This document shows positions 38,269 to 43,499 of a stretch of DNA of 64,000 nt, in pieces. How positions within the stretch are numbered: the first letter of the stretch is position 1; each line of letters starts with the position of its first letter. Location: assembly GCA_002862095.1 (NCBI GenBank), contig PHSQ01000002.1, forward strand, positions 682,001 through 746,000, written 5' to 3'. The stretch is from Methylocystis sp. KS32. GTDB lineage: Bacteria; Pseudomonadota; Alphaproteobacteria; Rhizobiales; Beijerinckiaceae. Position numbers and translations under genes: made by a program. The notes under the pieces were generated by a model that saw nothing but the letters and a program-made list of their open reading frames with translations, had not been told where the DNA came from and made no database searches.

Positions 38269-40356
38269 TCAATGTGCTCCATGATCGTTGGCGGGCGCGC
38301 GCGGCGCCGGCGGCCTTGCAGCCGGAGCGAACGCCGGCCCTCTAGCCGGCGCCCCTCTGAACGCCGGCGGGGCGCCGCCGCCACGTATCGTGGGCATATG
38401 CATGGCCGCCGGGGGCGCCTGCGGGAGCATGCGCGGAGCCTGCGGGAGCATGCGCGGAGCCGGTGGGACCATGCGCGGAGCCGGAGCCGCATGGATCGCG
38501 GGAGGAGCCGCATGAATCGCGCCGGCTGACGGCGGGGCGGCGACGCTGCCGGCGCCAGGCGTAGCTCCATGACTCGCCGCGGCGGGAGATAGCGCGCGCG
38601 GCGGCGCCGCCGTGGCAGGCGAAAGGTGGGGCGCGGGTTGTTTAGCCGGGGAGGCTGCTCCCGGAGCGGCCCCAACCGCGCCCGGCTGGAAATGCGAGCC
38701 GGCGCCCGGAGAAACAACGTGGGCTCCCAGAGCCCCAGCGCCGGGGGTCGGCGTGGGAGGATTGGTCGGAAGCACGTGGCGGGGGGCGAGCCCGGTTCCG
38801 GGGGCGACCGGCGCGGCGGCCGGTTGCTTGCCGAGGAAGTGGGGCAAGGACGCCCCAATGGCCAGTCCCGCCGCGCCGGCGCCGACCGCTGTCAGCGCTC
38901 CGGTAGACAAAATATGGCCCTGCGGATTGCTGACCACGAAATTCTGCGCGACGGGGTTCACGACGACAGCATTGTGGATATTGGCGAAAAAGATGTTGTT
39001 TGGCGGCGGCGGCGCGATGAAGGGCGGCGGCGTCACATAGACTGGCATCGGCACGAACACCGGCACGGGAAGCACGTAAGCGGCCCCGAAAACGACGGGC
39101 GGCGCCAGGACAACGAAGTCCGGCGGCGGCGGCGGAAGAAAATAGATCGGCGCCGGAGGCGGAGGGGCAAAACCGAAGACCGGATCGGCGAAATAGAGAA
39201 CAGGCCGGTCGACATAGATGATTTCTTCCGGCGGCGGAGGCGGATAGCCCATGTCGACGGGTTCGAAACCCTGCGGCGGCTCCATCGCGACCGCGCGATC
39301 TTCCAGACGGCGTCTTGCGTCCCAATAATGAGGGCCATGCGGATAACGTCGCAGATAGGACCAATAGGCGCCGGGCGTATCCATGGTTCGGGCCCGGCGC
39401 CAAAACAAGGCTTCGCGCCGCGCCGCGAGCATGGCGCGAACCCGCTTGGCTTGCGGGTTCGTCGGATAGGCGGCGAGGTAATCCTGATAACCCTGCAAAG
39501 TGTCCCGCTGCACGCAGGCTGTGTAAGCGTCGGCCGGGCTCAACTGAGAGATCGGCTTGGATTGAAGAGCGGCGTCGTAGCCCTGGTTCGGCGCTTGAGC
39601 GGTCCGCTCCAGGAACATAAATGCGCCGCCGGCTTTCGAATTCCATGGAATCTGTCCGCCCTTCGAGACCTCCGAAACGCGCAGCCGGGTCTCTTCGAAA
39701 ACTTGCGTCAAAGGCATACCCCCCGCGCGGATCATCTCCGCGAGAGCGTGCGCATAGGCGCCATAGGGACCAGCCTCCACCGGCGCGATCGTGCCCGGAG
39801 CGGCGTTATAGGCGAGAAGCAGGTTTGGCGGGGGCTCCGAGAGAGCGAGGCCGCCGGCGATCGGCTGACCACTCAGCGCGAACGGATTTTCGCGCGCCGC
39901 GTCCAGCACGACCACGGTCGTCTTCAGATTGAGCGCGGCCAGCGGCTTTAGGAAATCCGAAACCCGCGCCGCGCGCATCGGTATATCGGTGTCGCGCGCG
40001 ATGGAGGCGTCGATCGGGACCAGATAATTTTCGCCTTCGAGTTGCAGTCCGTAACCAGAAAAATAAATGAAGGCGGCCGTCTCCGGTCCCGACGAACTAG
40101 CCTTGTCCAGAAAATCGACAAAAGCCTTGCGCAATGCGTCGCCATCCAGGTCGCGCGCCCCCGTGACGTCGAAACCCGCCGCCTGAAGGGTCTGCGCGAT
40201 CAGACCAGCGTCGTTGGCGGCAGTCGCCAGGGGCTTCGCGCGATAGGAGGCCTCGCCGACGACCAGGGCGATGCGCTTTTCAAGCGCGGAAGCCCCCGAG
40301 GCGCCGAAAAGTCCAAGCAGCCCGATCAAAAGTAAGCTCAAAATCAAATTTTTCAT
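38269..40356 (-). CDS. Caspase-fold (C14) protein with both catalytic residues replaced
   Basis: The 695-residue exported protein (signal peptide 1-25) has an N-terminal p20-like caspase domain: KRIALVVGEASY, FIYFSGYGLQ, ENYLVPIDA and VVVLDAARENPF. Active relatives have SGHG and DACR; here the histidine is Tyr102 and the cysteine Ala154, so no protease dyad remains. Residues about 265-370 resemble the helical repeat region found after such domains. The rest is extremely Pro/Ala-rich and includes a short hydrophobic Gly/Ala segment and near-tandem PRMLPQA repeats. It may act as a scaffold or binding protein. Confidence 0.85.
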   Translation of the reverse strand: MKNLILSLLLIGLLGLFGASGASALEKRIALVVGEASYRAKPLATAANDAGLIAQTLQAAGFDVTGARDLDGDALRKAFVDFLDKASSSGPETAAFIYFSGYGLQLEGENYLVPIDASIARDTDIPMRAARVSDFLKPLAALNLKTTVVVLDAARENPFALSGQPIAGGLALSEPPPNLLLAYNAAPGTIAPVEAGPYGAYAHALAEMIRAGGMPLTQVFEETRLRVSEVSKGGQIPWNSKAGGAFMFLERTAQAPNQGYDAALQSKPISQLSPADAYTACVQRDTLQGYQDYLAAYPTNPQAKRVRAMLAARREALFWRRARTMDTPGAYWSYLRRYPHGPHYWDARRRLEDRAVAMEPPQGFEPVDMGYPPPPPEEIIYVDRPVLYFADPVFGFAPPPPAPIYFLPPPPPDFVVLAPPVVFGAAYVLPVPVFVPMPVYVTPPPFIAPPPPNNIFFANIHNAVVVNPVAQNFVVSNPQGHILSTGALTAVGAGAAGLAIGASLPHFLGKQPAAAPVAPGTGLAPRHVLPTNPPTPTPGAGALGAHVVSPGAGSHFQPGAVGAAPGAASPAKQPAPHLSPATAAPPRALSPAAASHGATPGAGSVAAPPSAGAIHAAPPAIHAAPAPRMVPPAPRMLPQAPRMLPQAPPAAMHMPTIRGGGAPPAFRGAPARGPAFAPAARPPAPRAPANDHGAH

Positions 40357-40999
<643 letters not shown>

Positions 41000-41045
41000 T
41001 CGAGCCGCCGACGCCCCCGCCCTTTCACCTGCACGAGAAAACCCA

Positions 41046-42350
41046 ATGCTCAAAATTATCGCCACGACGCTCGGCGCCGCGCTCTTCGTCACGCCGGCCG
41101 TCGCGCAAGAAGGCGGCAAGATCGACGCCGCCGACACGGGCTTCATGATCGTCGCCACGGCCCTCGTGCTTATGATGACGCTTCCCGGACTGGCGCTGTT
41201 TTACAGCGGCATGGTGCGCAAGAAGAACATTCTCGCCACGATGGCTCAAAGCCTCGTCGCGACGGCGATCGTTTCCATCCTTTGGGGCGCGGTGGGCTAC
41301 AGCCTCGCCTTCACCGAAGGCACGCCTTACATCGGCTCGTTGTCGCGAACGCTGCTCGAAGGCGTCGGCGTCGACACCATAAGCCCGCTCGCCAAGACCA
41401 TTCCCGAAATCCTCTTTGTCGCCTATCAAATGACTTTCGCGGTCATAACCTGCGCCCTGGTCGGCGGCTCGGTCGCCGAACGCATGAAATTCTCGGCCTT
41501 CATGCTTTTCTGCGTCTCGTGGCTGTTCGTCGTCTATATCCCCTCGGCGCATTGGGTCTGGGGCGGCGGCTTCCTGCAAAAGATGGGCCTGCTCGACTTC
41601 GCCGGCGGAACGGTTGTGCATATCAACGCCGGAGTGGCGGGGCTCGTCGCCGCTTTGGTCATGGGCAACCGGCAGGGTTTCGGCCGCGAGAATCTCTCTC
41701 CTTTCGATCTCTCGCTCGCCGTGATCGGCACCGGTCTGCTGTGGGTAGGTTGGTTCGGCTTCAACGGCGGTTCGGCGCTGGGGGCGAACTCCCGCGCCGT
41801 GTTCGCGATCGTCGCGACGCATCTCGCCGCTTGCGCTGGCGCTCTCGTCTGGAGCGGGCTGGAATGGATCGAGCGCGGCAAGCCTTCGGTGCTGGGCGTC
41901 ATCTCCGGCGCCGTCGCGGGACTGGGCGCCATCACCCCAGCTTCCGGCTATATCCTGCCCTGGCACGGCGTCGTGATTGGCGCGCTCGCCGGCGGCGTCT
42001 GTTACTGGTTCTGCACCGTCGTCAAGCACCGTTTCCAATATGACGACACGCTCGACGTTTTCGGGGTTCACGGCGTAGGCGGCATTCTCGGCACTTTGCT
42101 GGCGGGCGTCTTCGCGACCCGCGCCATCACGGCCTCGGCCGACGATCCGGGCGTATCGGGCCTTCTGGAGGGCGACGCGCACCAATTTTTGGTGCAGGCG
42201 ATCGGCGTCGGCGTGACCATCGTCTGGTGCGTCGTCGGCACTTATGTCGTCCTGAAGCTGGTGGCGATGGTCACGCCGCTTCGCGCGAGGAGCGACGAGG
42301 AGCGCGAAGGCCTCGATATCGCCCTGCATGGCGAGGCTCTGCATCAATGA
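41046..42350 (+). CDS. amtB: Ammonium transporter
   Basis: The 434-residue protein has a signal peptide (cleaved near AVAQ) and eleven transmembrane helices. Family hallmarks are DTGFMIVATALVLMMTLPG, AHWVWGGGFL, GGTVVHINAGVAGLVAA and the twin-histidine regions. It conducts ammonium/ammonia across the inner membrane and is gated by GlnK. The ATG at 41046 (MLKIIATT) gives the expected signal peptide; an in-frame ATG at 40983 lies inside glnK and is less likely. Confidence 0.95.
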   Translation: MLKIIATTLGAALFVTPAVAQEGGKIDAADTGFMIVATALVLMMTLPGLALFYSGMVRKKNILATMAQSLVATAIVSILWGAVGYSLAFTEGTPYIGSLSRTLLEGVGVDTISPLAKTIPEILFVAYQMTFAVITCALVGGSVAERMKFSAFMLFCVSWLFVVYIPSAHWVWGGGFLQKMGLLDFAGGTVVHINAGVAGLVAALVMGNRQGFGRENLSPFDLSLAVIGTGLLWVGWFGFNGGSALGANSRAVFAIVATHLAACAGALVWSGLEWIERGKPSVLGVISGAVAGLGAITPASGYILPWHGVVIGALAGGVCYWFCTVVKHRFQYDDTLDVFGVHGVGGILGTLLAGVFATRAITASADDPGVSGLLEGDAHQFLVQAIGVGVTIVWCVVGTYVVLKLVAMVTPLRARSDEEREGLDIALHGEALHQ

Positions 42351-42546: not shown

Positions 42547-43017
42547 ATGTATGGCAAGACCTATTCGGCGAAGCCCGCCGACATTGAAAAAAAATGGGTG
42601 CTGATCGACGCCAAGGGATTGGTCGTCGGTCGCCTCGCCTCGCTGATCGCCTTGCGTCTGCGCGGAAAGCACAAGGCCACCTACACCCCCCATATGGACG
42701 ATGGCGACAACATCGTCGTCGTCAACGCCGACAAGGTGGTGTTGACCGGCCGCAAGCGCGACCAGAAGGTCTATCACCATCACACCGGTTTTCCGGGCGG
42801 CATCAAGGAGCGGTCCGCGAAGTTCATTCTGGATGGACGCTTCCCCGAGCGCGTCCTGGAAAAGGCTGTGCAGCGCATGCTCCCGCACGGACCGCTTGGT
42901 CGTGTGCAACTTGGCAATCTGCGCGTCTACAAGGGCGCGGAACACCCTCACGCCGCTCAAAATCCGACGCCTCTGGACGTCGCCGCGCTGAACTCCAAGA
43001 ATTCCCGGAGCGCCTGA
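42547..43017 (+). CDS. rplM: Large ribosomal subunit protein uL13
   Basis: The 156-residue protein matches L13: [42 protein letters not shown] and the [10 protein letters not shown] signature. It forms the usual pair with rpsI two bases downstream. The start has no strong Shine-Dalgarno, as often in ribosomal protein genes under leader control. Confidence 0.97.
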
Positions 43018-43019
43018 CC

Positions 43020-43499
43020 ATGGCCGAGACCACACTCTCCTCCCTCGCGGACCTCAACCAGGCGGCGGCCGTCGCTTCCGAGGCACCAAAGCACGTTCAG
43101 AAACTGGACAAATACGGCCGCGCCTACGCGACCGGCAAACGCAAAAACGCCATCGCTCGCGTATGGATCAAGCCCGGCACGGGCAAGATCACCGTCAACG
43201 GCCGCGAATTCGATGTCTATTTCGCCCGCCCGGTGCTGCGCATGATCATTCAGCAGCCGCTGGGGATTTCCAAGCGCACGGGCCAGTACGACCTCGTGGT
43301 GTCCGTCGCTGGCGGCGGCCTTTCCGGACAGGCCGGCGCGGTCAGGCATGGGCTCTCCAAGGCCCTGACCTATTACGAACCGGAGTTGCGCGCCGCGTTG
43401 AAACGCGAGGGCTTCCTGACCCGCGATTCGCGCGTGGTCGAACGCAAGAAATACGGCAAGAGGAAAGCCCGCCGCAGCTTCCAGTTCTCGAAGCGCTAA
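43020..43499 (+). CDS. rpsI: Small ribosomal subunit protein uS9
   Basis: The 159-residue protein has an N-terminal extension of about 30 residues usual in alphaproteobacteria, then the S9 core ([33 protein letters not shown]) and the C-terminal [11 protein letters not shown] tail that reaches the decoding centre. The ATG at 43020 follows the rplM stop by two bases; the frame is open far upstream inside rplM but that is not used. A strong terminator follows. Confidence 0.97.

Follow-up and report, generated by a model that had tools for sequence, protein, structure and literature searches.

A caspase-fold protein of Methylocystis that has lost both catalytic residues and may bind where its ancestors cut

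What does a caspase-fold protein do once both residues of its catalytic dyad are gone? The question is raised by a gene in a stretch of 64,000 nucleotides of Methylocystis sp. KS32 (contig PHSQ01000002.1, positions 682,001 to 746,000), which we will henceforth refer to as the window; its features are collected in Table 1. The predicted product (the window protein) has a Pfam match to Peptidase_C14 at residues 27-241 (E 9.5e-30; 104.4 bits against a cut-off of 21.4), and scans of the 695-aa protein detected nothing else in Pfam at E 0.1 and no match in NCBIfam at E 0.01. Within this domain the motif SGHG reads SGYG (Tyr102) and DACR reads DAAR (Ala154), which agrees with an earlier note on this DNA, made from the sequence alone, that both active-site residues are gone while the fold is kept.

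Table 1. Coordinates in the window of the pseudo-orthocaspase gene, its parts and its divergent neighbours.
Feature	Positions	Strand	Remarks
Pseudo-orthocaspase CDS	38269..40356	-	ATG start, 695 aa, stop codon included
Apparent Sec-type signal peptide	40285..40356	-	residues 1-24; cleavage presumed after A-S-A
Caspase domain	39607..40281	-	residues 26-250
Tyr102 codon	40051..40053	-	catalytic His position
Ala154 codon	39895..39897	-	catalytic Cys position
Asp49 codon	40210..40212	-	aligns with first S1-pocket Asp
Asp152 codon	39901..39903	-	aligns with second S1-pocket Asp
Conserved helical region	39283..39573	-	residues 262-358; helices in structure model; without Pfam match
Poly-proline/aromatic stretch	39001..39282	-	residues 359-452
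N-x-HN motif stretch and Gly/Ala-rich, mildly hydrophobic segment	38836..39000	-	residues 453-507
Low-complexity Pro/Ala-rich tail	38272..38835	-	residues 508-695
Nitrogen regulatory protein P-II (glnK-like), divergent neighbour	40661..40999	+	context only
Ammonium transporter (amtB-like)	40983..42350	+	context only

To place the substituted residues we used a profile of 11 relatives, which aligned with the MALT1 paracaspase (sequences taken from solved structures) at E 2e-05, with SGYG lying over AGHG and DAAR over DMCR. MALT1 was the best match of the window protein both by sequence and by fold, and the structure model matched the whole MALT1 caspase domain (341-562), from which the window protein may also have a p10-like second half, in a part where model confidence is low (pLDDT about 43-63 at model residues 161-234, which make up the later half of this domain). 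A first model, built from an 11-row alignment, was too weak (pLDDT 59.6) and was discarded. We also considered whether a shifted alignment might place another His-Cys pair in the active site. Residues 1-260 of the window protein contain one His (His203) and no Cys at all, and the 12 other orthologues in the genus likewise have none in this region except for Cys16 of one of them (L013), which lies in the signal peptide; no shift of the alignment can thus restore the dyad, and a hidden His-Cys pair in the domain is ruled out. Judged from its sequence, the window protein is a pseudo-protease that retains the caspase fold and has neither catalytic residue.

Such proteins have been described before. 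The window protein combines a caspase/p20 domain with substitutions at both the catalytic His and the catalytic Cys, which places it with the pseudo-orthocaspases and sets it apart from active orthocaspases (C14B), defined by the His-Cys dyad. Orthocaspases as a group are told apart from metacaspases by their lack of a p10 domain. Its Tyr-Ala dyad and prolonged C-terminus without identifiable domains are those of the YA-type pseudo-orthocaspases of Rhizobiales described by Klemencic et al. in 2019 (PMC6426788), and frequent substitution by Tyr and Ser had already been noted in 2012 (PMC3501461). As a sequence find the protein is therefore ordinary, a member of an already described class. The earlier note had considered the combination of Tyr/Ala and this kind of tail unusual, a view that does not stand given this class and given that runs of at least four consecutive Pro were found in 73 out of 74 complete relatives. 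In the literature on pseudo-orthocaspases, Rhizobiales orthocaspases and caspase proteins of Methylocystis, Bradyrhizobium and Rhizobium we found no paper on the window protein itself. A regulon table of PMC6710368 lists the Bradyrhizobium gene bll3611 under the name of a caspase family protein, and plasmid records label relatives plainly as "caspase family protein".

We then asked how far the altered dyad is shared. With orthologues in the genus defined by E 1e-200 or better, the gene was found in 13 out of 39 genomes; being missing from the other 26, it is dispensable. The Cys position was Ala in all 13 orthologues; at the His position 11 of them have Tyr, whereas L005 has Leu and L013 has Ala. 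Among named genomes we took the best 80 of 398 relatives, so that conservation there is biased towards near relatives, and found Ala at the Cys position in 80/80 and Tyr at the His position in 78; of the two exceptions, L037 (whose contig is that of L005) has Leu, and L115, from a draft genome of Bosea, has His. Combining genus and named relatives (the latter again the best 80 of 398) and removing four duplicates (L037, L052, L063 and L065) gave 89 rows, some of them still near-identical, with Ala at the Cys position in 89/89 and Tyr at the His position in 86/89. A survey of relatives for retained His and Cys therefore turned up His in a single row and Cys in none. A more even draw of the order (121 genomes, 11 carriers at E 1e-60) gave a wider range of dyads, namely YA in 6, YS in 2 and EA, LS and VA in one each. 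Given that the same Tyr/Ala residues recur in relatives, chance is not an issue.

Purifying selection acts on the caspase domain, in which median dN/dS was 0.17 (77 genus pairs). Together with the invariant Ala in the 89 relatives (the named ones being the best 80 of 398), this bears out the earlier note in its view of a pseudo-protease as opposed to a decayed gene; the conservation of Tyr/Ala and the domain dN/dS also rule out a decayed paralogue. In a tree built without the dyad columns, a single branch (support 100/99) separated 53 rows with altered dyads from 17 rows with His and Cys, and 7 changes were needed in the His column and 3 in the Cys column. This fits the view that the branch sampled here lost catalysis a single time, apparently not repeatedly, and that the His slot drifted afterwards, within the limits that long branches set on the trees (both carry long-branch warnings, and 6 homologue rows were dropped because their branches were long or duplicated others). 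Among the dropped rows is L027, a dyad-altered homologue outside the branch (His-Thr dyad, S1 Asp-Ala), meaning that dyads have been lost elsewhere too.

While the dyad has gone, the residues of the substrate pocket have not. In the profile alignment two Asp residues of the window protein, Asp49 and Asp152, fall on their counterparts in MALT1, which line the S1 pocket of that protease. In a trypanosome metacaspase Asp95 and Asp211 take basic substrates, and both are reported as kept in pseudo-orthocaspases (PMC6426788). Asp152 was kept in 89/89 rows of our set of relatives (including the best 80 of 398 named ones) and Asp49 in 88/88, with one gap; both were kept in 11/11 even-draw carriers. 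Asp was also found at the first position in 22/22 and at the second in 22/23 homologues, i.e., in active ones too, and the pair could for this reason be kept for folding. Besides Ala154, 27 positions (Asn184, Thr189 and Tyr198 among them) are fixed, with one residue shared by at least 97% of the family but by no more than 20% of homologues. These positions suggest a remodelled surface still in use, and could in part reflect shared ancestry. From the alignments we infer that the ancestral cleft is used for binding and that its rim has been remodelled.

The place in which such binding would occur may be indicated by the N-terminus. By eye and in a hydropathy window, the window protein begins with a hydrophobic core followed by an Ala-Ser-Ala site (residues 22-24), and the hydropathy window was over threshold in 13/13 genus orthologues and 79/79 tested named loci. 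The apparent signal peptide points to export by the Sec route and probable residence in the envelope. The explanation as a whole that we favour, with middling confidence, is that of an exported pseudo-orthocaspase whose dyad was lost in a distant ancestor and which has been kept for a non-catalytic binding job in the envelope. Specifically, the caspase fold would have been retained for this non-catalytic role, the protein would be exported by the Sec route and then stay in the cell envelope, its Pro-rich tail would act as a spacer or tether, and the former substrate cleft, its S1 pocket still acidic, would bind a stretch of a partner that contains Arg or Lys and leave it uncut. In most carriers of the genus the protein would do so without an active C14 partner. 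An envelope scaffold or binding role, suggested by the earlier note, is also what we would infer. More tentatively, the whole branch may consist of receptors that bind basic peptides in the envelope, with a cleft frozen for binding (the acidic S1 pocket kept, catalysis given up once and the His slot left to drift) and a Pro-rich arm, working solo and independently of photosynthesis, and with methanotrophs among its carriers.

The tail invites a different account, namely that the protein is mainly structural, that its function in the envelope falls to the tail and the helical region and that the caspase domain is a stable module only. The signal peptide and Pro/Ala-rich tail of some 300 residues reported by the earlier note were both recovered, the tail as about 340 residues with 24% Pro and 21% Ala. 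Counted from slightly different points, the tail has 337 residues after residue 358 here and a median of 468 after residue 370 in relatives, and is thus shorter than their median. A 21-base tandem repeat (3.1 copies, 38417-38482) lies inside the Pro-rich tail and is a likely route for changes in its length; the Gly/Ala-rich segment within residues 453-507 reaches a hydropathy of 1.43 over 20 residues. Favouring the structural account, an N-x(0-3)-HN motif follows the domain in 72 out of 74 complete relatives (all but L038 and L072), nearly as often as the Pro run, and the helical region has a median dN/dS of 0.22 (77 genus pairs). Yet conservation is highest in the caspase domain, and median dN/dS rises to 0.38 in the poly-Pro stretch (77 genus pairs) and to 0.51 in the far tail, the least conserved part (75 genus pairs, with dS under 1.2 in 11 of these). 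Moreover, in the even draw the Pro run was found in 11/11 rows but the N-x-HN motif in just 4/11, some rows being cut at the locus end. We regard a mainly structural role as possible but doubtful.

Neighbouring genes did not point to a partner. The divergent glnK-amtB pair adjoins the gene in 11 out of 13 genus orthologues (exceptions L005 and L013), while beside the named loci of other genera (flanks of at most 6 kb, and shorter in some cases where the contig ended) there was no match to glnK, amtB or topA; the flanks in Bradyrhizobium differ, one group resembling by eye dnaE and rpsB-tsf-pyrH-frr. With a neighbourhood that differs between genera and no shared partner, an operon partner was ruled out. 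Anti-phage defence was likewise rejected, as the match to the PADLOC caspase model was weak (E 6.5e-06) and a Pfam scan of 17 window proteins, the neighbours of the gene among them, revealed no defence protein. Two side observations concern this neighbourhood. A sigma-54-like site (TGGCAC-N5-TTGCW, one mismatch) lies at 40594-40609 (+), some 50 bases ahead of the glnK-like gene and on the same strand; it is the only one-mismatch match among 21 in the window, a total at chance level. The ribosomal S9 ORF (42594-43499, +) has a long in-frame extension ahead of the likely true start Met-Ala-Glu-Thr, and this extension resembles an out-of-frame reading of the gene upstream.

A partner might instead be an active orthocaspase, with the window protein pairing with and tuning a C14 protease as c-FLIP does with caspase-8. 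The genome of the window does encode a second Peptidase_C14 protein with intact GHG and DAC motifs (L002; G000 contig C5, 36519-37193), and pseudo-caspases of such a kind exist elsewhere (PMC6426788). However, in 10 out of 13 genus carriers (two of the ten, G011 and G034, being many-contig drafts) the genome has no Peptidase_C14 match besides the orthologue of the window protein, and thus this protein cannot in general regulate an active C14. Furthermore, the start of L002 has no obvious signal peptide in the part seen, so that the two proteins may not meet. We therefore consider a regulatory role unlikely.

It is also very unlikely that a new chemistry resides in the Tyr/Ala site or in other fixed residues: the 27 family-specific positions would leave room for one, but the His slot has drifted among Tyr, Leu, Ala, His, Glu and Val, and the Cys slot holds Ala or Ser, unlike a reactive pair.

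Finally, a role in photosynthesis was proposed for pseudo-orthocaspases in 2019 from their distribution over phototrophic orders, with pseudo-variants within Alphaproteobacteria reported only from photosynthetic organisms, an argument made by order (PMC6426788). We searched for the reaction-centre family PF00124 and found it in 10 out of 39 genus genomes, meaning that the search is able to detect reaction centres; this agrees with photosynthesis genes reported in some Methylocystis (PMC7285482). The family was absent from the genome of the window and was present in 2 out of 13 genus carriers compared with 8 out of 26 non-carriers (Fisher p 0.45). It was found in none of 20 named carriers from Afipia, Bradyrhizobium, Labrys, Rhizobium, Phyllobacterium and Bosea (22 were chosen by hand out of 80 loci, and 20 of these were searched). 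The published tie is thus not borne out for this branch, and a photosynthetic role for the window protein is, despite the published distribution, barely tenable. Methylocystis and other non-phototrophic carriers are better places in which to seek the function of pseudo-orthocaspases.

The window protein can be compared with several known systems. MALT1 is an active Arg-specific protease of animals; it differs in having both His and Cys in place, and its matched chains are without a Pro-rich tail. Active (HC) orthocaspases of the same order share the homologous domain, with 27-39% identity among the non-orthologous matches listed, but they keep His and Cys in 22 of the 23 rows examined and fall outside the dyad-altered branch. 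Like the window protein, SyOC of Synechocystis is a p20 protein without the dyad; the genome has no other orthocaspase gene, and deletion of SyOC raises oxidative-stress tolerance (PMC7889975). It differs in being cyanobacterial and in having a Tyr-Gly dyad. Closest are the YA-type pseudo-orthocaspases, whose description in PMC6426788 does not, as far as compared, include the signal peptide and poly-Pro/N-x-HN tail of the subgroup studied here, and whose proposed tie to photosynthesis contrasts with our findings. With them the window protein shares the caspase domain, the Tyr-Ala dyad, the prolonged C-terminus without identifiable domains, the order (Rhizobiales/Hyphomicrobiales) and the retained S1 Asp residues (PMC6426788): in a class of proteins without an assigned function, the substrate pocket has outlived the catalytic residues.
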